Shown: piece after piece, positions 9,126-46,660 of the stretch
Position numbering within the stretch: the stretch's first letter is position 1
Layout of the letters: every line of letters begins with the position of its first letter
Origin: Lachnospiraceae bacterium
GTDB lineage: Bacteria; Bacillota; Clostridia; Lachnospirales; Lachnospiraceae
Length of the DNA stretch: 49,856 bases
Assembly (NCBI GenBank): GCA_024684055.1
Contig: JAIKXN010000110.1
Span: forward strand, 1-49,856
Direction of reading: 5' to 3'
Made by a program: the position numbers and the translations under genes
Notes under the pieces: generated by a model
Seen by the model: only the letters and a program-made list of their open reading frames with translations
Told to the model about the DNA's origin: nothing
Databases searched by the model: none

Positions 9126-9259
9126 TTATATTCTGCTTCAATTAAATATTTTGTTTTGCTTCATTTTAATATAAATTTTTATATTCAGCTTCAATTTTAA
9201 ATATTCCGCTTAAATATAAATATTTCAGTTTCAATTTATATGTTATATTCAACTTCGAT
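9126..9259 (-). repeat. Degenerate copies of the ispE 3' end
   Basis: On the minus strand the last codons of the IspE fusion (IEVEYN, near ATCGAAGTTGAATATAA at 9243-9259) recur after the stop as ATTGAAACTGAAATAT (9220-9235), ATTGAAGCTGAATATAA (9179-9195) and ATTGAAGCAGAATATAA (9126-9142). Spacing is irregular and the filler is AT-rich. This looks like old tandem duplication of the gene's end. Confidence 0.6.
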
Positions 9260-10537
9260 TTTCATTTCGCAGTGATTCAGGCTCTCATAGCCCTGCATTA
9301 TGTCGTAATCGATTTCAAGAACAAGTCTGTCGGCTATTTCATTTAAAACAAACTCATGACAAATAATATCAATATTGATGTCTCCGTAAGCCGTGCTGTA
9401 AACAGAACTCGTGCTTTCATCCGGGGTGATCAGCATGCTGGTACTTACCGCACCCGACTTTGTATAAAGAAGTTTTCTGTCGCTTATCGTCAGAGTATTT
9501 ATGATATCGTACTTGCTGTCCTTGTCTTTTTCGTAATATGTAATACTGATGCTTCCTCTTTTTTCCGTGGCAACACAGTCATGGACTTCTTCGACGGGAT
9601 CTTCGCCGTCCATTGAGGACGTAATTCGTATCTGCGCTTTCTTTCTTACTTCATCGCTGCTTAAGTCTTCAAAACAGGTAACAACCACATCGCCGACTTC
9701 ATCAAGCGCTCTGAGTTCGACTGCTGCCCTTTCGGCATTTGCCTTGTTGTCAAAAAGACCGAATACGGTAGGACCGCTTCCGCTCATAAGCGATTTCATC
9801 GCACCGTGTGCATTCATTATGTCTTTTAATTCCTGAACAAACGGATAATCCTTTAAGGTTACGTTTTCAAGAATATTTTCTATATTTGATGCTATGCTCT
9901 TAATGTCTTTTCTGTTAATCGAATCGATTACCGAATCGATATCCGGATGCTTCTTTATATTCTCAACATGAAGATTCGCATATACATATCCGGTTGATAC
10001 GCCGAATTTCGGCTTTGCTATAAGAACCGTACAGTGAGGAACATCGGGAAGCCTGGTAAGTTTTTCTCCGATTCCTTCTGAAAGATATGTACCCCCATAT
10101 ACGCAAAACGGAACATCGGCACCAATCTTCACGCCGAGTCTGCAAAGTTCTTCTTCAGTAAGTCCGAGACCGAAAAGCTTGTTAAGACCCCTGAGTGTTG
10201 CTGCGGCATCGGAACTTCCGCCTGCCATTCCGGAAGCCATGGGAATATTCTTTATAAGTCTGATATCAACACCCTGTCTGATATTATACTTTTCCATCAT
10301 CAGATTGGCTGCTTTGATAATAAGATTTGTTCCGTCAAGAGGCAGATTATCTACATCTGCAATCAAATTGACTCCTTCGGTCGACGGGCTTGTTGCGAAT
10401 GTGATCTCATCGCAGATACCTATGGTCTGCATTATCATTTTAACTTCGTGATATCCGTCTTCTCTTCTTCTCAGAACATCAAGTCCGAGATTTATTTTTG
10501 CATATGCTTTTTCTTTTACGGTTTTGCTTATCGCCAT
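9236..10537 (-). CDS. ispE: IspE (CDP-ME kinase) fused to a DUF1934 / YwiB-like domain
   Basis: Residues 1 to about 285 are 4-diphosphocytidyl-2-C-methyl-D-erythritol kinase, an ATP-dependent step of the MEP isoprenoid pathway. Visible motifs are AYAKINLGLDVL at the N-terminus and the GHMP ATP loop MASGMAGGSSDAAA. SGSGPTVFGLF is the C-terminal glycine motif. Ordinary IspE stops there. Here the frame continues without break for about 140 more residues (IRITSSMDGEDPVEE to the end), resembling DUF1934, the YwiB-type beta-barrel of unknown function. The junction near residue 294 is not a frameshift. The ribosome site is weak. It follows a tandem repeat and pyrD. The kinase call is firm; the second-domain call rests on pattern memory. 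Confidence 0.88.
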   Translation of the reverse strand: MAISKTVKEKAYAKINLGLDVLRRREDGYHEVKMIMQTIGICDEITFATSPSTEGVNLIADVDNLPLDGTNLIIKAANLMMEKYNIRQGVDIRLIKNIPMASGMAGGSSDAAATLRGLNKLFGLGLTEEELCRLGVKIGADVPFCVYGGTYLSEGIGEKLTRLPDVPHCTVLIAKPKFGVSTGYVYANLHVENIKKHPDIDSVIDSINRKDIKSIASNIENILENVTLKDYPFVQELKDIMNAHGAMKSLMSGSGPTVFGLFDNKANAERAAVELRALDEVGDVVVTCFEDLSSDEVRKKAQIRITSSMDGEDPVEEVHDCVATEKRGSISITYYEKDKDSKYDIINTLTISDRKLLYTKSGAVSTSMLITPDESTSSVYSTAYGDINIDIICHEFVLNEIADRLVLEIDYDIMQGYESLNHCEMKIEVEYNI

Positions 10538-10761: not shown

Positions 10762-11661
10762 TTAAACACATCCGATAATCTCATTGATATCCGAAATGTT
10801 GTGAGTCATCATGTATTTTTCAATTCCTTCTTTAACCTCAACGGTTGCGTAAGGATTCATGAAATTGGCTGCTCCGACAGCTACCGCCGTTGCACCTGCC
10901 ATCATAAATTCTATAGCATCCTCGCCCGTCATGATTCCGCCCATTCCGATAATAGGGATCTTAACGGCCTGCGCACACTGATAAACCATTCTTACCGCCA
11001 CTGGTTTAACGGCAGGACCTGACATTCCGCCCGTTTTGTTTGCAAGGATAAATCTTCTTCTTTCAATATCAATCTTCATGCCGGTAATCGTATTGATCAA
11101 AGAAATCGCATCGCTTCCCGCTGCTTCGGCAGCCTTTGCCATTTCGGTAATATCGGTTACGTTGGGACTTAATTTCATGATAATGGGTTTCTTTGAAACC
11201 TTTTTGATCCTGTCCGTAATGTTAAAAAGCGCATCTGCTTTCTGTCCGAAGGCGATCGCACCCTCTTTTACATTGGGACATGAGACATTGATTTCAAACA
11301 TATCCACGTTTTGGTCATTAAGTCTTTCAACAGTTTCTATATAATCTTCGACACTTTTTCCGCAAACATTAACGATTACTTTCGTATCATACTTTGCCAG
11401 AAAAGGAAGGTCTCTTTCTATCATTACATCAACGCCGGGATTCTGAAGTCCGATGGCATTGAGCATTCCTCCGTAAACTTCCGCAACTCTGGGCGTGGGG
11501 TTTCCTTCCCAGGGAACATTGCTTACGCCTTTGGTAACTACCGCGCCGAGTTTGTTAAGATCGACGAACATGGAATATTCCATTCCGGATCCGAAAGTTC
11601 CCGATGCTGTCATTACGGGATTTTTAAATTCTACGCCGGCTATAGTAACTTTAGTATTCAT
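10762..11661 (-). CDS. pyrD: Dihydroorotate dehydrogenase B, catalytic subunit
   Basis: FMN enzyme that oxidises dihydroorotate to orotate in pyrimidine synthesis; class 1B, working with PyrK and NAD. Seen: TASGTFGSGMEY, NVSCPNVKEGAIAFGQ with the active-site cysteine, IMKLSPNVTDI, and GMGGIMTGEDAIEFMMAGA for phosphate binding. At 299 residues it is full length. Its start overlaps the pyrK stop, so the two are translationally coupled, as usual for the heterotetrameric enzyme. Confidence 0.96.
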   Translation of the reverse strand: MNTKVTIAGVEFKNPVMTASGTFGSGMEYSMFVDLNKLGAVVTKGVSNVPWEGNPTPRVAEVYGGMLNAIGLQNPGVDVMIERDLPFLAKYDTKVIVNVCGKSVEDYIETVERLNDQNVDMFEINVSCPNVKEGAIAFGQKADALFNITDRIKKVSKKPIIMKLSPNVTDITEMAKAAEAAGSDAISLINTITGMKIDIERRRFILANKTGGMSGPAVKPVAVRMVYQCAQAVKIPIIGMGGIMTGEDAIEFMMAGATAVAVGAANFMNPYATVEVKEGIEKYMMTHNISDINEIIGCV

Positions 11662-12437
11662 CAGATATCCACCTCCTCGGCATCAAATACGGGTCCTTCT
11701 GTACATATTCTTCTGTTGTTTACGTTTGAATGATCGTCTTTCTTTACGGTCTTACATACGCATCCGAGACACGCGCCTATACCGCAGGCCATTCTTTCTT
11801 CCAAAGAAATGTATGCTTTGATTCCGTTTTCCTCTGCGTATTTTTTGATTGCACGAAGCATGGGCATCGGTCCGCATGCCATAATAATGTCAGGCTTAAG
11901 ATAGATGCTTGCTCTTAATGCATCAAGAACATTTCCTTTTACTCCGATGCTTCCGTCCTCACTCGCAAGATAAACCTTGGAATACTGCATGAATTCGTCG
12001 GAAAGGAATGTATCTTTGTTTCTGTATCCGAGGAATGAATGAACATCGTTTCCTTTTAATGCTTTTGCAACGCCGAGCATGGGAGGGATTCCGATTCCGC
12101 CGCCCATTAATACAACACACTTGCCTTCGGCTTCCTCAATGGGAAATCCGTTACCGAGATTTGCAAGAACTCTTACCGTATCTCCTTCTTTTAAGGAAGA
12201 AAATTCCTTTGTTCCTTTGCCCGCAACTCTGTAAACAAATCTTGTTGCTTTGTCTTTTGTCTCGCAAATACTTATCGGACGCATAAGAAGCGTATCCTTT
12301 GAGTTTGGGAAAATACCCGCAAACTGACCGGGATTTGCTGCCTCAGCACCCTTGTTTTCGATCAGCAGACTGAATATCCCGTCTGAGATCTCTTCCTGTG
12401 AAATCACTTTTCCTTCATCAATTCCTCTGTAAAACAT
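11661..12437 (-). CDS. pyrK: Dihydroorotate dehydrogenase electron-transfer subunit
   Basis: FAD and [2Fe-2S] subunit that passes electrons from PyrD to NAD. An N-terminal FAD-binding barrel (MRPISICE), an NAD domain (VLMGGGIGIPPMLGVAKAL), and a C-terminal cysteine cluster (ERMACGIGACLGCVCKT plus a later RRICTEGPVF cysteine) are seen. The start at 12437 is preferred: GGAGG lies six bases before this ATG, while the ATG six codons upstream has no site. It is preceded by its own promoter-like sequence. Confidence 0.95.
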   Translation of the reverse strand: MFYRGIDEGKVISQEEISDGIFSLLIENKGAEAANPGQFAGIFPNSKDTLLMRPISICETKDKATRFVYRVAGKGTKEFSSLKEGDTVRVLANLGNGFPIEEAEGKCVVLMGGGIGIPPMLGVAKALKGNDVHSFLGYRNKDTFLSDEFMQYSKVYLASEDGSIGVKGNVLDALRASIYLKPDIIMACGPMPMLRAIKKYAEENGIKAYISLEERMACGIGACLGCVCKTVKKDDHSNVNNRRICTEGPVFDAEEVDI

Positions 12438-12469
12438 GCATCCTCCATAAATCATGTGTTTTTATATTT

Positions 12470-12554: not shown

Positions 12555-13967
12555 TTACTTTCCGTATACGATTTTTCCGTCGCATATTGTCATTTTGATG
12601 CGTCCGGTAAGTTCCTCGCCGATAAAAGGTGTATTGTGTGATTTCGACTGAATATCACTGTCGCTAACCGTCCATTTTTCGTTAATATCGGCTATCGTTA
12701 TATCCGCTGCCTTGCCGGGTGTAAGCGTTCCTCTGTCAAACCCGTAAAGTTTTGCGGGATTGATTGTAAACTTTGAAACAACATCTTTTAAACTCATTCC
12801 TGATTCATTGACAAGATGCGTAACAGCCAGAGCAAATGCGGTCTCAAGTCCGATCATTCCGCTCGGTGCTTCCGTTATGCTTTTTGCTTTTTCCTCCAAA
12901 GCATGAGGAGCATGATCCGTTGCGATGATATCTATGGTTCCGTCTCTTAAGCCTTCTATGATCGCCTGTCTGTCTTCTTCCGTTCTGAACGGAGGATTTA
13001 ATTTTGCAAGAGTCCCTTTCGCGATCAGTGCATCTTCAGTAAGTGAAAAATGCTGAGGCGTTGCTTCCGCATGTATATTCTTTCCGCCTGCATTTTTGGC
13101 TTTTCTTACAAGTTCAACGCCTTCCTTTGACGATATATGCTGAACATCAAGAACTCCGTTTGTTTCAAGCGCTATCTTAATGTCTCTTTCGATAAGAACG
13201 ATCTCGGCTTCTCTCGGCGCCCCGTAAACTCCGAAGTGTTCGGAAGCTTTTCCGTGATTGATCCCGTTATTTTTTATGAGTGTTTTGTCTTCTTCGTGAA
13301 GACTTATAGGAAGACCTTTCGCTTTTAAAAATGCTTCCCTTAAAATATTCTCATCCATAAGGGGAATTCCGTCATCCGTAAAACCGACGGCACCATGTTT
13401 TATAAGTTCATCGAAATCTGTTAACTTTTCTCCCTTAAGGCCATATGTTACGCTTCCGCAGGATTCAACTTTTATGCCTGTTTCCCTGCCTTTGTTTAAT
13501 ACGTAATCAAGAGTATCGGCATTGTCCACGGTCGGCTTCGTATTGCACATAAGAACCACTGTGGTATATCCGCCTGCTGCCGCTGCCTTTGCACCGGTTA
13601 AAATGTCTTCCTTATACTCGAATCCGGGATCCCTGAAATGCGAATGCACATCTATTAACCCCGGCATAACCGTAAGGCCTTTTGCATCAATAACTTCAGC
13701 ATCGGAATATTTATCTTTAAGTTCGTCCGGGGAAAATTTAACGTTTAATCCGACTCCCGGATCCTCCACTGCATCAGAAATAATTGCATTTGTCCTGGCA
13801 TCGGGATTCTCATCCTTCAACCCTGCATCCGAAACACTTCCATTTAAACCGTTTTCCGAATCATAAAGAACCACCGATTCGATTATTTCTCCGTTAATAT
13901 ATACATCGCCGATTCCTTCAACTCCGTTAGCGGGATTGATAATGAATCCGCCTTTAATAATCGTCAT
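12555..13967 (-). CDS. pyrC: Dihydroorotase with an N-terminal-region insertion
   Basis: Zinc amidohydrolase forming dihydroorotate from carbamoyl aspartate. Class I motifs are intact: DVHSHFRDPGFEYKED with metal-binding histidines, the asparagine of MCNTKP, and DIIATDHAPHALEEK. At 470 residues it is longer than the usual 420-430. The excess is an acidic stretch at about residues 36-82, inserted just before the strand that leads to the catalytic HxH. It contains repeated SDA/DA units (SVSDAGLKDENPDA, IISDAVEDPG, YSDAEVIDAKG), so it probably grew by local duplication. Activity should survive, since the insert lies in the small beta domain. An AGAGGAG site supports the start. Confidence 0.94.
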   Translation of the reverse strand: MTIIKGGFIINPANGVEGIGDVYINGEIIESVVLYDSENGLNGSVSDAGLKDENPDARTNAIISDAVEDPGVGLNVKFSPDELKDKYSDAEVIDAKGLTVMPGLIDVHSHFRDPGFEYKEDILTGAKAAAAGGYTTVVLMCNTKPTVDNADTLDYVLNKGRETGIKVESCGSVTYGLKGEKLTDFDELIKHGAVGFTDDGIPLMDENILREAFLKAKGLPISLHEEDKTLIKNNGINHGKASEHFGVYGAPREAEIVLIERDIKIALETNGVLDVQHISSKEGVELVRKAKNAGGKNIHAEATPQHFSLTEDALIAKGTLAKLNPPFRTEEDRQAIIEGLRDGTIDIIATDHAPHALEEKAKSITEAPSGMIGLETAFALAVTHLVNESGMSLKDVVSKFTINPAKLYGFDRGTLTPGKAADITIADINEKWTVSDSDIQSKSHNTPFIGEELTGRIKMTICDGKIVYGK

Positions 13968-13982: not shown

Positions 13983-16900
13983 CTACTCTTCTTCGTTTAC
14001 AAAATAGAAGCCGAATTCGTCTATGCCGTCTTTGTAAACCTTGGCTTTTCTTCCGTTATACACGCTTACGGCAAACATATTCGTTCCCATGTTTCTTAAA
14101 TAAACTTTCTTTTTTGTTACGGGAACGTAATCAAGATCGACACTGCTTCCGATCTCTTTTACATCTTTTCCGTTATAAAGATTGATTTTGTAGAAACCGT
14201 CGACGTCCTTTACCTGATATGCAAAAACATAGTTGTTTCCATACGCTGTTTTCTTAACGCTTCCCGTTGAAACATTTCTTGCCACGAGTTTTTCGTTGCA
14301 GTAAAGATCAAGAAGTCCGCTTCCGTCGTTCTTTGTAACGAATACTTTTTTGTTTCCGATGTATTCAACATTTTCGATATTGCTGTCCACACAAACAGCA
14401 GTCTTTGAGAAACCTATTCCCTTATATGACACCGAATAAAGATTCGTTGCGCCGTTTTCTTTGCTCCTTGCCGTGAAATAAAGCTTTTTACCTTTACTGT
14501 CTATACCGACTACTTCTTTGGGATCCGCATCATCAATTCCGTTTATCTTCAATGCGCTTCCGTCTTTTATAAGATAGAAAGTACCGTCGCCTTTACGCAT
14601 GATAAAGGCAGCTTCGTTAAACTCTTTTCCCATCATTTTCTTGCAGTCGTCGCTGACCTTTCTGGCCTTGAAACTGTTCTCTCCGAAATACCAGAGATCC
14701 TTTGAGCCATCCTCAAAATATACCTTCGATTTTTCTGAATTTGCAGGGAAATAGTAAGATATCGAATCCGTGGTTATCGTTACGGTTTTCTTGCCCTTTT
14801 TGTTCATGCATAAAGCACCGTCTTTTGAGTAAATGATTCCGGTCTGTTTTTCGTTGACATGTAAAAGAGCCGTTATGTTTTCTTCGATAAGCTTGATCGA
14901 TTCTTTAGAATTAACCTTCATCTGATAAATCTTCACATCATATGTTTCGAAGATGATATTGCTGCCGTTACGATAATATGAACGCACATTCTGCGAAAGA
15001 AGTTCTGTATCGTTTTTCTTTGCATTGTATAAATAGAGATTGTCATTTACTTTATAAAGTAATTTGTTCTTTCCGAGAGTTTCGTATTTCTGAACGTTTT
15101 CGGCGATATCTTTTGCACCCTTTCCGTTTGAGGTGCAAACCTTTAATATCTTTGCCTGACCGTTATCGATCTCGAAATAGAAATTCTTTCCGTCATAATG
15201 AATCGCTGGATTCTGATAATTATCGGGATCCTTTGCCACGTTTTCGCCGGCAGCGATGATCACATTGTCTTCGATAAGACCTTTTGTGCAGTAGCCCTGA
15301 GAAGTGCGGAATACCACTTCACCCGACGTAATCCTCTTATATTCATTGGCCTTGATTATTCCTACCGCTGCCGTAACGATCACTATAACAGCACATACCG
15401 CAATAAGAATCGCGATAAGCTGTTTTTTCGCGCTTTTCTTTTCCTTCTGATCCGAAGTCAGAGTCTGACCGTCAGCGGCTTTTTTGTTCTTTTTGCCTTT
15501 TTCTTCCGTTTCCGTAACCGTTTCTGTCGAAGCAGCACCCTCGGTCGCAGTTTCGGCATTTTTTCCCAAATTAATGATATTTCCGATTGTGCTGTCATCG
15601 GTACCGAAAGAAGTATTCTTGAAAAGTTTTTCTTCTCTTTTTGTAAATGAATCCTTCTTGTCTTCATTCATCAAAGCATCGAGGATACGACTGAATTTCA
15701 TTCCGTTTGATGCCTTGAGCAAAACAGTATCGTCTTTTTTGATAAACGTATCGAGTTTTTCAATCGTCTCATCCACGCTTTCAAAATAAATTACATTTGT
15801 AAATTCCTTGTCAGCTGCTGCCGTGAAGGCTTTATCATACATTTTCTTCGAAAGAGGTCCTACGCAGACGATCGTATTGATTTCTTTCTTGGCTGCATAC
15901 TCGCCGATTTCTTCATGACTTTTGTCTTCGTTCTCGCCCTGCTCGTACATGTCTCCGAGAATGGCTACCGTGGGAGTAACCGCTTCGGTAAGAAGGTCGA
16001 GTGCTGACTTCATGGATTCCGGGCTCGCATTGTAGCAGTCATCTATTATCGTAATTCCGTTTTTCTGGATAATATTGTTTCTTCCCTGAATTGCCTTAAC
16101 GCATGAGATACCGAAGCTGATGTCTTCGGCGGAAAGATTGAGTATCTTTGCAACGCTTACTGCCGCAAGCGCATCATATACCATATGTTTTCCGGCAAGA
16201 GGAATGCTTATGCCAAAAATTCCGTCCTTGTCCTGCACGGTACATTCGCTTCCCCACAAACCTCTGTTTAACACTTTTACGGGATGAACGTCATTTTTTT
16301 CGTCAAAGCCGTATTTTACGGGCTTTTTGCCTTTTACATCTTCAATCTTTGCCAGTCTTTCGTCATCGCCGCATACAACAACACATCCGTCTTCTTTCAT
16401 ATGTTCGAAGATTTCCGTCTTTGCCTTGAAAACACCGTCAAGCGATCCGAGTGTTTCGAGATGACATTCGCTGATATTGGTGATAACGCAGATGTCGGGT
16501 TTAGCCATTTCGGAAAGGATCGTCATCTCTCCGAACTCGCTGATTCCCATTTCCAGAACTGCGATCTCATTGTTTTCCTTGATGTTTAAGATTGAAAGGG
16601 GAAGACCGATAAGATTGTTCTGATTCTTATCGGTTTTGTAGACACTGTATTTCTGTGAAAGTACGGTGGCGATAAATTCTTTGGTAGTGGTTTTTCCGAT
16701 ACTTCCCGTTACGCCGACTACTTTTATCGAAAGACTCTCTCTGTAGTAGCGGGCAACGCTTCTTAAAGCTTTGATCGTATCTTCGACCACGATACATATA
16801 CCGTCTTCGCCTTCGGGTACTCTTTCGCAGACTACTGCAAGAGCGCCGTTGTCAAAAGCCGATTTGATATAATCGTGTCCGTCTGTTTTTTCTCCCTTGA

Positions 16901-17033
16901 ATGCAAAGAACAGAAAGCCCTTTTCGACTTTTCTCGAATCAATGGCCGCTCCCGCAATTTTTTTATCTTCGAAGCCCTCGCCGTTTACAATTTTCCCGTT
17001 ACATGCGAGTGCAATACTTTGAACTGTTAACAT
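13983..17033 (-). CDS. murF: MurF fused to a transmembrane helix and a large C-terminal domain
   Basis: Residues 1 to about 455 are UDP-MurNAc-tripeptide:D-Ala-D-Ala ligase, the last cytoplasmic step in making the peptidoglycan stem peptide. Seen: GVTGSIGKTTTKEF (ATP loop), KTDKNQNNLIGLPLS, EMGISEFGEM, and DDCYNASPESMKSALD. MurF normally ends there. This protein runs on to 1016 residues without a break: a charged low-complexity linker (about 456-534), one strong transmembrane helix (about 536-560), then about 450 residues rich in short strands with repeated YLYN/LYFTA/LYCNE-like blades, suggesting a beta-propeller outside the cell. I do not recognise that domain with certainty. A GGAGGGG site sets the start; pyrC follows 15 bases on and ddl precedes by 30 bases. 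Confidence 0.9.
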   Translation of the reverse strand: MLTVQSIALACNGKIVNGEGFEDKKIAGAAIDSRKVEKGFLFFAFKGEKTDGHDYIKSAFDNGALAVVCERVPEGEDGICIVVEDTIKALRSVARYYRESLSIKVVGVTGSIGKTTTKEFIATVLSQKYSVYKTDKNQNNLIGLPLSILNIKENNEIAVLEMGISEFGEMTILSEMAKPDICVITNISECHLETLGSLDGVFKAKTEIFEHMKEDGCVVVCGDDERLAKIEDVKGKKPVKYGFDEKNDVHPVKVLNRGLWGSECTVQDKDGIFGISIPLAGKHMVYDALAAVSVAKILNLSAEDISFGISCVKAIQGRNNIIQKNGITIIDDCYNASPESMKSALDLLTEAVTPTVAILGDMYEQGENEDKSHEEIGEYAAKKEINTIVCVGPLSKKMYDKAFTAAADKEFTNVIYFESVDETIEKLDTFIKKDDTVLLKASNGMKFSRILDALMNEDKKDSFTKREEKLFKNTSFGTDDSTIGNIINLGKNAETATEGAASTETVTETEEKGKKNKKAADGQTLTSDQKEKKSAKKQLIAILIAVCAVIVIVTAAVGIIKANEYKRITSGEVVFRTSQGYCTKGLIEDNVIIAAGENVAKDPDNYQNPAIHYDGKNFYFEIDNGQAKILKVCTSNGKGAKDIAENVQKYETLGKNKLLYKVNDNLYLYNAKKNDTELLSQNVRSYYRNGSNIIFETYDVKIYQMKVNSKESIKLIEENITALLHVNEKQTGIIYSKDGALCMNKKGKKTVTITTDSISYYFPANSEKSKVYFEDGSKDLWYFGENSFKARKVSDDCKKMMGKEFNEAAFIMRKGDGTFYLIKDGSALKINGIDDADPKEVVGIDSKGKKLYFTARSKENGATNLYSVSYKGIGFSKTAVCVDSNIENVEYIGNKKVFVTKNDGSGLLDLYCNEKLVARNVSTGSVKKTAYGNNYVFAYQVKDVDGFYKINLYNGKDVKEIGSSVDLDYVPVTKKKVYLRNMGTNMFAVSVYNGRKAKVYKDGIDEFGFYFVNEEE

Positions 17034-17063: not shown

Positions 17064-18104
17064 TTATTCATACTTTTTAAGTGCAATTTCAATAATTTTC
17101 TCGCAGAGAGCAGGAAAATCAATTCCGATTGCCAGCGCTTCCTGAGGAAGAAGCGAGGTGGGTGTCATACCCGGAATCGTATTAGCCTCAAGGCAGTATT
17201 CCTGTCCGTTCTCATCAAGAAGAAAATCGATCCTTGCATATCCCTTTAAATGAAGTGCTCTGAAAGCTTTCTCGGCATTTTCCTGAATTCTCTTCGTGAT
17301 ATCCTCTTCAAGATTTGCGGGACAGGTTTCCTTTGTGCTTCCTGCCTGATATTTGTTCTTATAATCATAAAAGCCTTCAAGCGGCTCTATTTCAACAAGC
17401 GGCAATGCCTTTCCGTCAAGAATACCGCATGTAAACTCTCTGCCATTGACGAACTGTTCAAGAAGAACGTGGTTATCAAGCTTAAAGCATTTTTCAACCG
17501 CTTCTTTTGCTTCGTCTTTGTTGTCAACGATGAAAACTCCTACACTCGAGCCGCCGTTGGGAGCTTTGACAACCATCGGGAAACCAATCTTTTCAAAACC
17601 TTCCTCCGCCTGTTCTTTGGAATAAATGCTGAACGCTTTCGGTGTCGAAATACCGTTCATGATAAGGAAATCCTTTGTAACGCTCTTATCCATACAGATC
17701 GCGCTGCTAAGGTAATCCGTTCCAGAATATTTCACTTTGCAAAGGTCGAGCGAAGCCTGAATTCTGCCGTCCTCTCCTTTGGCTCCGTGAAGAGCAAGGA
17801 ATACGAAATCAGCCTTAAGACAGATTTCTTTAACGTTCTTTCCGAAGAAATCCTTATCGTTGCCCTTTAAGGCTCTTATCGCATTTATATCGGGATTCTC
17901 TTCGCCGATCTTGCTGATTCCTTCCGACCAGTCTCTTTTATCTTCAAAAACATGTTCTACATCTACATCATCCACACCAAGATAAACATCAAGAAGAACT
18001 ACATTGTGTCCTTTGCTCTTAAGCGCTTCATAAACTTCTTTACCGGAAACCAGTGATACGTCTCTTTCAGTGGAATCTCCGCCGGCAAGTACTGCTATAT
18101 TCAT
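17064..18104 (-). CDS. ddl: D-alanine--D-alanine ligase
   Basis: ATP-grasp ligase that makes D-Ala-D-Ala, the substrate MurF adds to the stem peptide; its place just before murF fits. Seen: VLAGGDSTERDVSLVSG at the N-terminus, FLALHGAKGEDGRIQ, VVKAPNGGSSVGV, and ARIDFLLDENGQEYCLEANTIPGMT with metal ligands. The start at 18104 is chosen over a longer frame from 18146: AAAGGAG lies nine bases upstream and the promoter at 18138-18166 would put the transcript start downstream of the longer ATG. 346 residues is normal. Confidence 0.95.
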   Translation of the reverse strand: MNIAVLAGGDSTERDVSLVSGKEVYEALKSKGHNVVLLDVYLGVDDVDVEHVFEDKRDWSEGISKIGEENPDINAIRALKGNDKDFFGKNVKEICLKADFVFLALHGAKGEDGRIQASLDLCKVKYSGTDYLSSAICMDKSVTKDFLIMNGISTPKAFSIYSKEQAEEGFEKIGFPMVVKAPNGGSSVGVFIVDNKDEAKEAVEKCFKLDNHVLLEQFVNGREFTCGILDGKALPLVEIEPLEGFYDYKNKYQAGSTKETCPANLEEDITKRIQENAEKAFRALHLKGYARIDFLLDENGQEYCLEANTIPGMTPTSLLPQEALAIGIDFPALCEKIIEIALKKYE

Positions 18105-18137
18105 AATGATATCTCCTTTATTCACAATATCCTTATT

Positions 18138-18166
18138 ATTATACATCTTTATTGTTAAACTGTGAA
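18138..18166 (-). promoter_or_regulatory. Promoter of ddl-murF
   Basis: TTCACA and a perfect TATAAT with a 17-base spacer; transcription would begin about 27 bases before the ddl ATG. It excludes the longer ddl start. Confidence 0.75.
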
Positions 18167-42691: not shown

Positions 42692-45600
42692 TTAATATGC
42701 GTTACGAAGTTCTTTTTCATCAACTGCCTTATCATTTTCAGCCGTAACCACAACCGGCTCGGGCATTGATGTTTCTTCTTCGTCTTTAATTCTTTCACCG
42801 TATTCGTCAACTCGCATCGACTTGTTCGAATTGAATATATCGTAAAGACAGGGCACAACGATAAGCGTAAGAATTGTACCGTAAATAAGTCCGCCTATCA
42901 TTACTATCGCCATCGGCTGCATCATTGCCGAACCGCCGCCGATACCGAGAGCAAGTGTTGTCATTGAAATCACTGTTGTAAGCGTTGTCATAAGGATCGG
43001 TCTTAATCTCGCTTTTGCAGCTTCAACTATGGCATCCTTTTTAGACACACCCTCGCGTCTAAGCTGGTTGATAAAGTCAACCATAACGATACCGTTGTTT
43101 ACTATGATTCCGGCCAGCATTACGAATCCGAGTGCACCGATTACGGAAACGTTGTTCTTTGTAAAGAAAAGTGCAAACAGACCGCCTGTAAATGCAAGAG
43201 GAATGGTAAACATTATGATAAACGGCGAGAGCAGTGACTGGAACTGTGCAACCATGATGAGGTATATAAATATTACTGCCAGGATAAGCATGAGCGTTAA
43301 CTGCTTCATTGCATCTCTGATCATCTCATCCTCACCTCCCATTTCAATCGAGTAACCGTCTTTAAGATTCATCTCGTCGAAACGTCTCTGGAGTTCATTG
43401 CTGACAAAAGTAATATTGTGTTCATCATCGATTCCCGCACTTACCGAAATATATTTTGTCTGAGCATCACGGTTAATAACATTAAGTGTATCCGTTACTT
43501 CAAAAGAAGCTACTTTTGAAAGAGGGATCATCTTGTGATTTCCTTCTCTGTCCGTATAAGGAAATTCAAGATAACAGATATCGTGAAGTGTTGTATCTGC
43601 CTGTTCTTCAGCAATCACGTAAATGTCATAATCCTTTGTATCCGCCGAAAGCGAAGTAGTGGCAGTACTCGGCATCATGGCTTTCATAACTTCCGCAAAA
43701 ACCTGAGCGGTTGTCATCTGATATTCCATGGCCCTTACCTTGTCCACATGAATTTTGATACAGGGTGTGGTATTGTCGAGACCGTCATTTATATTTTTAA
43801 CACCGGGTGTTTCTTCCATGATCGAAACAACCTCTTTCGTGTATTCCCTGATCTGGTCAAGATCCCTTCCTTTAACCATTACGGAAAGACCGGAACCCAT
43901 GAGTGAAGTCATATCGCCCGATGTCGTCGATACGCTTACCTTGCAGTTTAAATCCTTTGTCTTTTCTATTATTTCAGCCGTAATGTCTTCCATTTTTCTC
44001 TTGTTGTTTTCGTCAAGCAAAAGATAGTATGTAGCCGAATTTCCGCCGCCTAAACCGAGACCTGCGATTACGCTTCCGCCGCCGACCATTGCACCGACGG
44101 TATCGATTCCCTCAATACCCATAACTCTTTCAGTTACAATATCACAGTCCGCCATAAGATCTTCCTGAGTATATTCCTCATCTTCCGGCGCGTAAACAGA
44201 CATCGAGATCTGATCCACTTCAATATCCATATCGAGGAATGAAAATCCTCTCGAAAAACCTGCGTAAATACTGACTCCGAGAAGTACAAGTGCGAGCAGG
44301 AGGACCAGCGGTTTAAACTTAAGAATATACTTTAATCCCGAACCGTAAGCATCCCTTATTTTGTCAAAGAATTTCGTAGGCTTTTCCTCTCCGTCCTTGA
44401 TCATAACGGATGCAAGTGACGGAACGAAGGTAAGCGCAACTATCAATGACGCTGCGAGTGTATATGTTACGGTAAGTGCCATATCGACAAATACCTGTTT
44501 TGTAATACCCTGTGCAAATACGATGGGTGCAAAAACGCTGACAGTCGTGAGTGTCGAAGAGACGATCGCACCGCCTACTCCTTTTGCTCCTTCCACTGCC
44601 GCTTTATTAATGCTGGCTCCTTCTTTTCGCAGTCGGTATATGTTTTCTATGACGACTATCGAGTTATCAACCAGCATACCTATGCCCAGCGCCAGACCGG
44701 AAAGCGAAATAATATTCAGAGTGATATGTGTAAAATACATAAGCACAACTGCGAAAATAACGCTTAAAGGAATCGAGCAGGCAATAATAAATGTTGATTT
44801 GAAATCCTTTAAGAAAAGGATCAGGATAATAACCGCAAGAGCGGCACCGATGAGCATGTTCTGAACTACACTGCTTACAACTATGTCAATATAAACGCCC
44901 TGGTTCATAAGAACAGCCAGGTTAAGTCCCGGGAATTCCTCTTCCATCTGATCGAATTTATCAAGAAGTCTGTCGGTTACATCACCGGTCGAATAGCCTG
45001 TCTGCTTTTCAAACGAAAGCATTACTGCAGGGTTTCCGTTGATTTTTGAATATGAGTCTGCTGCATTGTTGACCACTTCAACTTTTGCAACATCCTTGAC
45101 ACGGATCGGCTCTATGTCTTCCATTCCGAGATCCAGAAGCACCATGTCACGAAGTTCGTCAACAGTATTAACACTGTCTCCGACAGAGATCATATACTGT
45201 TTTGCACCTTCATCAATGTAACCTGCCGGCATGTGGAAGTCCTGTGCAAGTATCAGGTTTCCGAGCATTTCAACCGTAACTATATTTGAAATGTCTGCCT
45301 GTTTCAGCGCTTCTTCTTTTGCTGCATCAAGCTGTGCCTGACCTTGTTCGAGAGCAGCCTTTCCGTTAGCGATTTCAGTTGTAGCTCTGCTCATTTCGAG
45401 AATACCCGTTACGATACCCTCGTTTAATTTTTTGTATGCATCATCAAGCGTAACTTTTCCTTCCGCAATCGGTTCCCTCGCCTGTTCCATTGTGGCAATG
45501 GTCGAATTAACCTTTGCAAGCGCTTCCGTAAGCTGAACCGAAAGAGTCTGCGGATTGTCTGTCGAAGCGGTAATGCCGAGCCACGACAAATCTATTCCGG

Positions 45601-46660
45601 CTTCTTTTAAAGCGTTGATCGCAGCGTCAACTTCTTCCTGAGAAGGAGTTACGGCATCTCGTGCTGCTTTAAGGGTCTCGACAAGCTGTACAAGCTGTTC
45701 CCTGGTCAGACCGGTGGATGTGAATATTTCCTCATCGGAAGCATTGTTAAGAAGATCCTCATACTGCTGAATAAGATCGAGTTTCTGTCTTAACTCATCC
45801 ACTCTCCTGTTGTAATCATTCATGGCATTTACGGCTCTTTCAAGAAGAGGCTTAACCATCTTCATCATCGCAAGATTGGATTCAAGTGTGGACTCTCCCA
45901 CGTAAAGCTGAATCTTGCCGTTAACGATCTGGTTGGCACCGTCAGCCACCTGTGAAGCCATTTGTTTTTTGCCGTCTTCAAGAGCTTTTTCGCCGTCTTC
46001 TATCTTCTGTTTTGCATCATCGATTTCACTCTGCGCATCGGCAAACCCTTTTTCAATATTTTTAACTACATCTTTGTTAAGTTTTTCAATCTTGTCTTCA
46101 TCGAGAGTGATCTGAATTCTCTCTTCAACCTTACCTGTAGTCGATACGCTTGCTACACCTTCAACACTTTCAAGATAAGGAACGATCGTACTGTCTACAT
46201 AGTCGGAAATCTCAATCTGAGACATGCCTTCCATGTCTACCGAAGCAACCATTACCGGAAGCATGGTAGGGTCAAGCTGCATTATCATCGGATTCTGAAC
46301 ATTTGCAGGGAAAGAACCCGATACCTGATCAAGTTTCTGCTGAATCTCTATAACTATGGAGTCCATGTTGGAACTCTGTTCGTATTCGAGAATAACAAGC
46401 GAATAACTGTTGTACGACATCGACTGAATTGTTTTTATATTCTTGGTCGTTGCCATCTGCGCCTCAACGGGTGCGGTAACATTTCTTTCAACCTCTTCGG
46501 GACTTCCTCCGGGGTAAACGGTGATTACCATGACATAGGGAAGATTCATATCCGGAAGAAGGTCGGTCGTCATTCTCATAACGCTAACCACACCAAGAAC
46601 TATAATAAGTACTACTCCAACCAATACCGTAAATGGTTTTTTAACGCTGTACTTTGACAT
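42692..46660 (-). CDS. RND-family exporter with a large coiled-coil insertion
   Basis: A 1322-residue proton-driven exporter of the AcrB/HAE-like group. Seen: KKPFTVLVGVVLIIVLGVVS (first membrane helix), PGGSPEEVERNVTAPVE, GLALGIGMLVDNSIVVIENI (the TM4 proton-relay region), and GIIVNNGIVMVDFINQLR. About 260 residues (roughly 195-458) of alpha-helical coiled coil (DAQSEIDDAKQKIEDGEKAL) are inserted in the first porter loop, absent from AcrB (1049 residues). Such insertions occur in Gram-positive RND proteins, where no outer membrane or separate adaptor exists. Substrates could be drugs, lipids or fatty acids; a TetR repressor follows. Confidence 0.92.
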   Translation of the reverse strand: MSKYSVKKPFTVLVGVVLIIVLGVVSVMRMTTDLLPDMNLPYVMVITVYPGGSPEEVERNVTAPVEAQMATTKNIKTIQSMSYNSYSLVILEYEQSSNMDSIVIEIQQKLDQVSGSFPANVQNPMIMQLDPTMLPVMVASVDMEGMSQIEISDYVDSTIVPYLESVEGVASVSTTGKVEERIQITLDEDKIEKLNKDVVKNIEKGFADAQSEIDDAKQKIEDGEKALEDGKKQMASQVADGANQIVNGKIQLYVGESTLESNLAMMKMVKPLLERAVNAMNDYNRRVDELRQKLDLIQQYEDLLNNASDEEIFTSTGLTREQLVQLVETLKAARDAVTPSQEEVDAAINALKEAGIDLSWLGITASTDNPQTLSVQLTEALAKVNSTIATMEQAREPIAEGKVTLDDAYKKLNEGIVTGILEMSRATTEIANGKAALEQGQAQLDAAKEEALKQADISNIVTVEMLGNLILAQDFHMPAGYIDEGAKQYMISVGDSVNTVDELRDMVLLDLGMEDIEPIRVKDVAKVEVVNNAADSYSKINGNPAVMLSFEKQTGYSTGDVTDRLLDKFDQMEEEFPGLNLAVLMNQGVYIDIVVSSVVQNMLIGAALAVIILILFLKDFKSTFIIACSIPLSVIFAVVLMYFTHITLNIISLSGLALGIGMLVDNSIVVIENIYRLRKEGASINKAAVEGAKGVGGAIVSSTLTTVSVFAPIVFAQGITKQVFVDMALTVTYTLAASLIVALTFVPSLASVMIKDGEEKPTKFFDKIRDAYGSGLKYILKFKPLVLLLALVLLGVSIYAGFSRGFSFLDMDIEVDQISMSVYAPEDEEYTQEDLMADCDIVTERVMGIEGIDTVGAMVGGGSVIAGLGLGGGNSATYYLLLDENNKRKMEDITAEIIEKTKDLNCKVSVSTTSGDMTSLMGSGLSVMVKGRDLDQIREYTKEVVSIMEETPGVKNINDGLDNTTPCIKIHVDKVRAMEYQMTTAQVFAEVMKAMMPSTATTSLSADTKDYDIYVIAEEQADTTLHDICYLEFPYTDREGNHKMIPLSKVASFEVTDTLNVINRDAQTKYISVSAGIDDEHNITFVSNELQRRFDEMNLKDGYSIEMGGEDEMIRDAMKQLTLMLILAVIFIYLIMVAQFQSLLSPFIIMFTIPLAFTGGLFALFFTKNNVSVIGALGFVMLAGIIVNNGIVMVDFINQLRREGVSKKDAIVEAAKARLRPILMTTLTTVISMTTLALGIGGGSAMMQPMAIVMIGGLIYGTILTLIVVPCLYDIFNSNKSMRVDEYGERIKDEEETSMPEPVVVTAENDKAVDEKELRNAY

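Follow-up and report, generated by a model that had tools for sequence, protein, structure and literature searches.

Mur ligases are usually regarded as soluble enzymes, the essential cell-wall enzyme MurF normally being cytoplasmic, and it has long been asked whether they form an assembly with MraY and MurG at the membrane. Described systems in which enzymes of this pathway are covalently joined include, according to PMC6420597, fusions of MurE-MurF (Bordetella), MurB-MurC, MurG-MurC and MurC-Ddl as well as an MraY-MurG fusion; the same paper discusses a complex of the Mur enzymes at the face of the inner membrane, with MurG as a scaffold. The DNA analysed here, further referred to as the window, comprises 49,856 nucleotides of a Lachnospiraceae bacterium (assembly GCA_024684055.1, contig JAIKXN010000110.1, positions 1 to 49,856). 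It carries a murF gene of unusual length (13983..17033, -; 1016 amino acids), whose open frame, profile matches and structural models point to a MurF ligase followed by a linker, a membrane helix and a propeller-like outer domain. This fusion was confirmed to be real and conserved.

Domain structure of the fused protein

The frame at positions 13983-17033 (-) consists of 1016 codons with zero internal stops; a recoded stop was dismissed, the frame being open under translation table 11. The original prediction, made from the DNA alone, had placed MurF, a transmembrane helix and a long domain rich in strands in this one unbroken frame, and TIGR01143, hydropathy and a 43-strand model bear this out. 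The ligase part corresponds to residues 1-455 (15669..17033, -), as indicated by TIGR01143, invariant columns and solved MurF relatives. Indeed, TIGR01143 matched residues 31-454 with profile positions 1-418, which is the whole model (E 5.8e-125; 417.5 bits, cut-off 288.6), and the Pfam families Mur_ligase, Mur_ligase_M and Mur_ligase_C each scored above their own cut-off. The ligase part aligned to PDB entry 3zl8, one of its relatives in the structure database. The ATP-binding loop and other positions (G107, T109, G110, S111, G113, K114, T115 and D331-A336) were invariant in 13 fused proteins (set A4, composed of the window protein and, with L071 left out, 12 of the 13 loci that hold a full-length fused frame), these conserved ligase residues presumably being catalytic. 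The fused gene gave the only TIGR01143 match at E <= 1e-75 in the window genome. As judged from these profile matches, the fused protein is the sole canonical MurF of the cell and a predicted ligase of UDP-MurNAc-tripeptide and D-Ala-D-Ala. A plasmid search matched 144 records, none over 80% or more of the query, and the 20 matches listed concerned the MurF part only.

The ligase is followed by a charged linker (residues ~456-537; 15423..15668, -), modelled as disordered, with a predicted local distance difference test (pLDDT) score below 50 at residues 467-539 of the full-length model (pLDDT 77.3; predicted template modelling score, pTM, 0.47). A single membrane helix (residues 538-560; 15354..15422, -) is suggested by hydropathy, Lys/Arg counts and the full-length model: the 19-residue Kyte-Doolittle mean rises to 3.26, and the model contains a long helix at residues 527-569, with pLDDT values of ~33-72 per block of ten. 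The window helix is flanked by six Lys/Arg in the 20 residues before it and four in the 20 residues after it (net charge +3 versus +2). Among the 22 aligned rows, Lys/Arg were more numerous before than after the helix in 21 and equal in G019. The net charge, however, was higher before the helix in 12 of the 22 rows only, equal on both sides in G013 and G014, and lower before it in eight (G018, G015, G019, G003, G028, G016, G006 and G009); the topology is uncertain because the net charge thus disagrees with the Lys/Arg count. Hence, the proposal that the helix anchors MurF and leaves the last domain outside the cell holds by prediction, with the net charge of eight rows speaking against it, and an inside N-terminus with the outer domain outside is the likelier reading. 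A lipoprotein anchor was dismissed; a Cys in the helix occurs in some rows only, and the sequence does not conform to the lipobox pattern.

The predicted outside domain (residues 561-1016; 13986..15353, -) was characterized by AlphaFold2, Foldseek and profile searches. AlphaFold2, supplied with 17 sequences, returned a confident strand-rich model (mean pLDDT 90.9, pTM 0.85), in which a short helix comes first and 43 strands follow. Foldseek retrieved 724 matches in the PDB at E <= 0.001 (best 6.1e-10), and the 50 matches listed were mainly propeller proteins, such as LRP6, DPP4, tricorn, sortilin and the sensor ectodomain of BT4663. On the basis of this model, the domain is called propeller-like, a predicted fold type that implies neither a blade count nor ring closure. 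At the sequence level, no Pfam or NCBIfam family scored above its cut-off for the window domain, DPPIV_N giving a weak match (E 0.0012), and the best match of the outer-domain profile to PDB sequences reached only E 0.027. A single-sequence search (E <= 1) found no second copy of the domain in the window genome. The row set used for the outer domain (A1) contained 19 of the 22 rows, G007, G022 and G028 being omitted as near-copies; two other sets consisted of 11 rows (A2) and of the window plus all 16 named-record loci mentioned below (A3). At E <= 1e-5, the 19-row profile gave matches, most of them partial, in 20 genomes of the 397 in the family, one of the 20 being that of the window. N-terminal zinc ribbons were present in six of nine scanned relatives of the domain (L046, L047, L048, L049, L052 and L053) and not seen in the other three (L050, L056 and L061). 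Conservation within the domain peaked at residues 888-963 (14145..14372, -), a candidate binding face; none of 2000 column shuffles reached the mean of this stretch, shuffling that disregards the correlation between neighbouring columns. As a separate observation, the fused frame of G021 (L009 1426-4557, -) ends in a short C-terminal tandem repeat, YNGRKSKVYKEGVSD x2.

Distribution of the fusion

The fused gene was found in 17 of the 31 genomes of the genus (G000, G002, G006, G007, G008, G009, G012, G013, G014, G015, G017, G018, G019, G021, G022, G024 and G025, the last being read from two contig edges). The carriers are bacteria of the gut and rumen, and 11 of the fused genomes display 50-59% identity to the window protein over almost its full length. 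Furthermore, the outer-domain profile retrieved 16 loci from named records, all from Lachnospiraceae and 15 from metagenome-assembled genomes (MAGs); 13 of these loci contained a full fused frame, one a piece and two the split form. The one locus from a record not titled as a MAG (FNEU01000004.1, Lachnospiraceae bacterium G41; L073) is fused. The window genome consists of 264 contigs, which leaves room for an assembly or sequencing error that masks a stop codon. Yet, the likelihood of such an error is practically negligible, because the same fused frame recurs in the relatives, including the genome not titled as a MAG, and a collapsed stop in this assembly, named as a possible refutation in the original prediction, is hereby ruled out. 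Similarly, no stop between the ligase and the helix was encountered in the 12 genomes that share the clade of the window (G025 as pieces only).

In the wider genus, split genes occur in five more distant members. In four of the 31 genomes (G003, G028, G016 and G010), the outer domain is encoded by its own gene right after murF, and in G005 this gene lies ~13 kb from murF, adjoining pyrC. In four genomes (G001, G004, G011 and, at a contig edge, G030), murF adjoins pyrC and no outer domain is present. A full canonical MurF was not found in five of the 31 genomes (G020, G023, G026, G027 and G029; for G026 and G029 by the genus-wide homology search alone). Three genomes without a close MurF, G020, G023 and G027 (L036, L034 and L035, respectively), encode a MurF-like protein of 538-567 amino acids. 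That of G027 (L035 5786-8686, +) reached 224.8 bits, below the TIGR01143 cut-off, and the MurF-like genes of G027 and G020 adjoin a divergent Ddl.

Selection and fusion history

The ratio of nonsynonymous to synonymous substitution rates (dN/dS) amounted to 0.02-0.05 for MurF (nine close pairs, the split pair G003/G028 not included), 0.03-0.22 for the linker (10 close pairs) and 0.05-0.11 for the outer domain (seven of 10 pairs, one of the seven being the split pair G003/G028; three pairs had a saturated dS), the pairs sharing genomes and hence not being independent. These ratios show that purifying selection acts on the outer domain.

A MurF tree of 25 of the 31 genus genomes and three outgroup rows (without G020, G023, G026, G027, G029 and G030) contained two fused groups. 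The first is a clade of 13 genomes (support 100/100), joined by G019 (86/77), and the second consists of G006, G009 and G015 (91/88), with the split G016 beside it (100/99). A single fused clade was rejected by the approximately unbiased (AU) test (p-AU 1.2e-4 for MurF and 2.4e-4 for the outer domain, the latter test lacking an outgroup and including G019, which forms a very long branch). Since the fused rows are not monophyletic, the state has changed at least twice. The gene between murF and pyrC, coding for a single-pass protein with an outside propeller-like domain, would have fused in frame with murF on two or more occasions within the genus, or once with a later fission; both histories would fit the AU test.

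The junctions differ among these groups. In G003 and G028, murF and the outer gene share one reading frame, and between them lie a TAA and 15 bases that include a purine-rich site (AGGAGG in G003). G016 has TAA where G006, G009 and G015 carry GAG or GAA, and ~10 codons downstream of this stop align with their linker. The fused genes of G006, G009 and G015 retain an ATG and Shine-Dalgarno (SD)-like bases near the start of the G016 outer gene, and the G019 linker likewise has an ATG with SD-like bases. These remnants would fit the formation of two products, with internal initiation or proteolysis freeing the membrane part or MurF, so that MurF would be soluble. However, no SD-like site precedes an ATG, GTG or TTG of the linker in the window and 11 clade members (G025 not scanned), and internal initiation could release the C-terminal part only, never MurF, making this alternative highly improbable.

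Possible role of the fusion

MraY, a membrane enzyme, consumes the product of MurF. In the explanation preferred here, MurF would be located on the cytoplasmic face, tethered by one helix via a flexible leash of ~80 residues that lets the ligase work, and UDP-MurNAc-pentapeptide would be made at the inner membrane face, near MraY. As MraY uses this product in the membrane, tethering could increase the amount available locally. As for the propeller on the outside, it would be an anchor or localiser that binds the wall or an envelope protein via the conserved residues 888-963 and in this way sets where synthesis happens. Tethering is also favoured by the occurrence, in another Lachnospiraceae genus, of a MurF joined to an unrelated membrane domain, described below. 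In this scheme we infer the topology, the ligase activity, the tethering, the closeness to MraY and the role of the propeller; as a whole it is put forward tentatively, its likelihood falling a little short of even.

The frequency of such fusions was assessed in the family through the 330 of 397 genomes with a MurF match at E <= 1e-75, the remaining 67 being left out. Frame lengths were taken from stop to stop; all frames above 600 amino acids and part of those of 530-600 amino acids were read, and a short added helix could escape. Frames above 600 amino acids occurred in eight of the 330 genomes. Besides the window, G042 and G366, both of genus g13 (L084 3041-5185, -, and L085 2525-4711, -), combine MurF with a Pro-rich linker and a polytopic membrane domain of ~6 hydrophobic stretches, counted by eye. 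At E <= 1e-5, the C-terminal part of these two proteins had no match in the rest of the 397 genomes, and it matched no Pfam family. A MurF-Alr fusion was found in G127, and two partners came from outside the wall pathway, namely FolD (G276; L099 2166-4391, -) and PyrK (G409; L101 3109-5289, +), the PyrK part of G409 scoring below the model cut-offs, yet being 51% identical to the window PyrK. Two genera contain Ddl-MurF, with Ddl in front (G277, L098 1602-4043, +, 813 amino acids; G418, L100 1307-3772, +, 821 amino acids). In an order sample of 146 genomes, three frames besides the window exceeded 600 amino acids: those of G489 and G506, which resemble MurE-MurF by BLAST of the two Mur parts only, and that of G520, the gene of which is itself of normal length. 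In a class sample of 148 genomes, the frames of G615 and G653 exceeded 600 amino acids, and no hydrophobic helix was present in the long frames read; both samples overlap the family sample by few genomes. G653 has two genes for MurF-like proteins with long N-terminal extensions, 985 and 916 amino acids in length (L095 414-3371, +, and 10137-12887, -, respectively), the first gene being followed by a Ddl-like gene.

The varied partners of MurF in these eight of 330 family genomes (the propeller-like domain with its membrane helix, two polytopic domains, Alr, FolD, PyrK and two Ddl) favour a neutral or expression-driven fusion, in which co-directional operon neighbours were joined by stop loss, the parts kept their old jobs and tethering is a side effect. 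The TAA of G016 opposite GAA or GAG in its fused kin, followed by codons that align with their linker, speaks for it too. So does the joining of another pair of neighbours in this cluster, IspE and DUF1934 (9236..10537, -; 433 amino acids), detected by TIGR00154, PF09148 and a genus survey. The survey gave a match in 30 of the 31 genus genomes, and the two parts were joined without a stop in exactly 13 of these 30, which are the window's clade; they were separate neighbours in G006, G009, G015 and G016, stops lay inside the match in G001, G019, G020 and G027, and in the remaining nine genomes the IspE part only, or a piece, was matched. Given this apparent habit of joining neighbours, also seen with FolD and PyrK as partners, the MurF fusion may need no special role. 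On the other side stand the retention of the fused state across the 13-genome clade and its separate gain or loss in a second group, the joining of two distinct membrane modules to MurF, and the selection of the linker against amino-acid change, although all three are compatible with neutral joining itself. Neutral joining is a real possibility, if on balance a doubtful one.

Several findings weigh against tethering as the role of the fusion. Firstly, the outer domain is separate from murF in five and absent in four of the 31 genus genomes, and coupling is therefore dispensable for MurF and for the genus. Secondly, MurF has acquired Alr, FolD, PyrK and Ddl as partners elsewhere in the family, and the IspE-DUF1934 joining coincides with the window's clade. 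Thirdly, the window and G021 share 80% identity in MurF and 40% in the outer part, the outer domain thus diverging much faster. Lastly, the net charges around the helix are discordant, as described above, and the top query-normalised TM-score among the 50 listed Foldseek matches is 0.49, for sortilin.

The layout of a cytoplasmic enzyme, a helix and an outside domain would also suit a transmembrane regulator, in which an outside ligand (a wall fragment, lipid II, an antibiotic or a peptide) on the propeller alters the activity or oligomer state of MurF. The conserved outside stretch 888-963, the occurrence of a sensor ectodomain (BT4663) and receptors among the listed Foldseek matches, and the zinc ribbons that replace the enzyme at the N-terminus in six of the nine scanned family relatives are in line with this. 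However, the linker of ~80 residues is modelled as disordered, and a tightly coupled conformational signal would therefore hardly be passed by the linker alone. In addition, the outer domain is separate or absent in other members of the genus, MurF is also fused to the non-wall enzymes FolD and PyrK in the family, and the IspE-DUF1934 fusion occurs in the same clade and cluster. Such regulation is decidedly unlikely. A transmembrane MurF that performs the final soluble reaction in making peptidoglycan precursors and whose propeller reads the wall state and steers or gates precursor supply within one chain, membrane tethering having arisen independently with two unrelated modules in Lachnospiraceae, is likewise considered unlikely.

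If MurF is tethered at the inner membrane face, as preferred here, this natural and conserved covalent link to the membrane would bear on whether the placement of a precursor enzyme at the membrane alters wall synthesis. Tethered, untethered and domain-less forms of MurF coexist in one genus, which offers a ready-made comparison. Furthermore, large C-terminal additions are tolerated by MurF.

Gene neighbourhood

The gene order in the genus is ddl - murF - [membrane/outer gene] - pyrC - pyrK - pyrD. In the window, ddl, coding for D-alanine--D-alanine ligase (17064..18146, -), lies directly upstream of the fused gene, in agreement with the original prediction, and scored above cut-off for NF002378 (E 7.6e-102) as well as TIGR01205; the product of Ddl is a substrate of MurF. 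Directly downstream lies pyrC (dihydroorotase; 12555..13967, -), assigned by TIGR00857 above cut-off and by the layouts in the genus, followed by pyrK (dihydroorotate dehydrogenase electron transfer subunit; 11661..12455, -; NF000798 above cut-off) and pyrD (dihydroorotate dehydrogenase; 10762..11661, -; NF005574 above cut-off). Elsewhere in the window, a transporter of 1322 amino acids (42692-46660, -) of the resistance-nodulation-division type, AcrB family, is encoded.

Comparison with known systems

Compared with known MurF enzymes (UDP-N-acetylmuramoyl-tripeptide--D-alanyl-D-alanine ligase; TIGR01143; PDB entries 3zl8, 4qdi and 1gg4), window residues 31-454 cover the entire MurF profile. 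The solved chains of MurF-type ligases count 437-475 residues, whereas the window protein has 560 extra residues and a membrane helix. With the Mur fusion enzymes (PRK11929, PRK11930, MurB-MurC and MurC-Ddl), it has in common that a Mur enzyme is joined in one chain. The partners in those enzymes are cytoplasmic enzymes of the pathway, whereas in the window MurF is joined to a membrane protein for which an outside domain is predicted and no enzyme activity is known. Indeed, when the window protein was tested against MurE-MurF (PRK11929), the MurE part was absent and the profile matched only from position 522 of 965 (400.9 versus 1023 bits); in the test against MurF-Alr (PRK11930), the Alr part was absent and the profile matched only up to position 455 of 822 (251.8 versus 804 bits). 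The fusion of genus g13 (G042 and G366) resembles that of the window in that a single frame encodes MurF, a linker and a membrane module, but it is polytopic, lacks an outer domain and is unrelated in sequence.

As to the outer domain, the Lachnospiraceae zinc-ribbon proteins likewise combine an N-terminal part of cytoplasmic type with a related domain (E down to 2.8e-28, mostly over the first half of the profile), and in L048 and L049 a hydrophobic stretch, identified by eye, lies between the parts as in the fused MurF. Their N-terminal part is, in contrast, a non-enzyme, and no murF match was found in the fetched stretches of ~3-4 kb. In its propeller-like model, the outer domain also resembles the DUF5050 propeller proteins, DUF5050 being named a beta-propeller in TsgL of the type VII secretion variant T7SSg in PMC11217815. 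PF16472 (DUF5050) matched two of the 19 aligned outer domains (best E 6.5e-8), whereas the window protein gave no match at E <= 1.

According to the original prediction, no described system of this form is known. This stands for MurF, as no description of a membrane-fused MurF was found in the open-licence PMC literature; it does not stand for Mur enzymes at large, as the MraY-MurG fusion is already in print (PMC6420597). Hence, neither covalent Mur fusions nor the joining of a Mur enzyme to a membrane enzyme is new; it is for MurF linked to a membrane protein that has a predicted outside domain that no account was found in the open-licence PMC literature. MraY-MurG resembles the window protein in that a cytoplasmic Mur enzyme is covalently tied to a membrane protein; its partner is the pathway's own membrane enzyme, whereas the MurF of the window is joined to a non-pathway, single-pass protein with a predicted outer domain.

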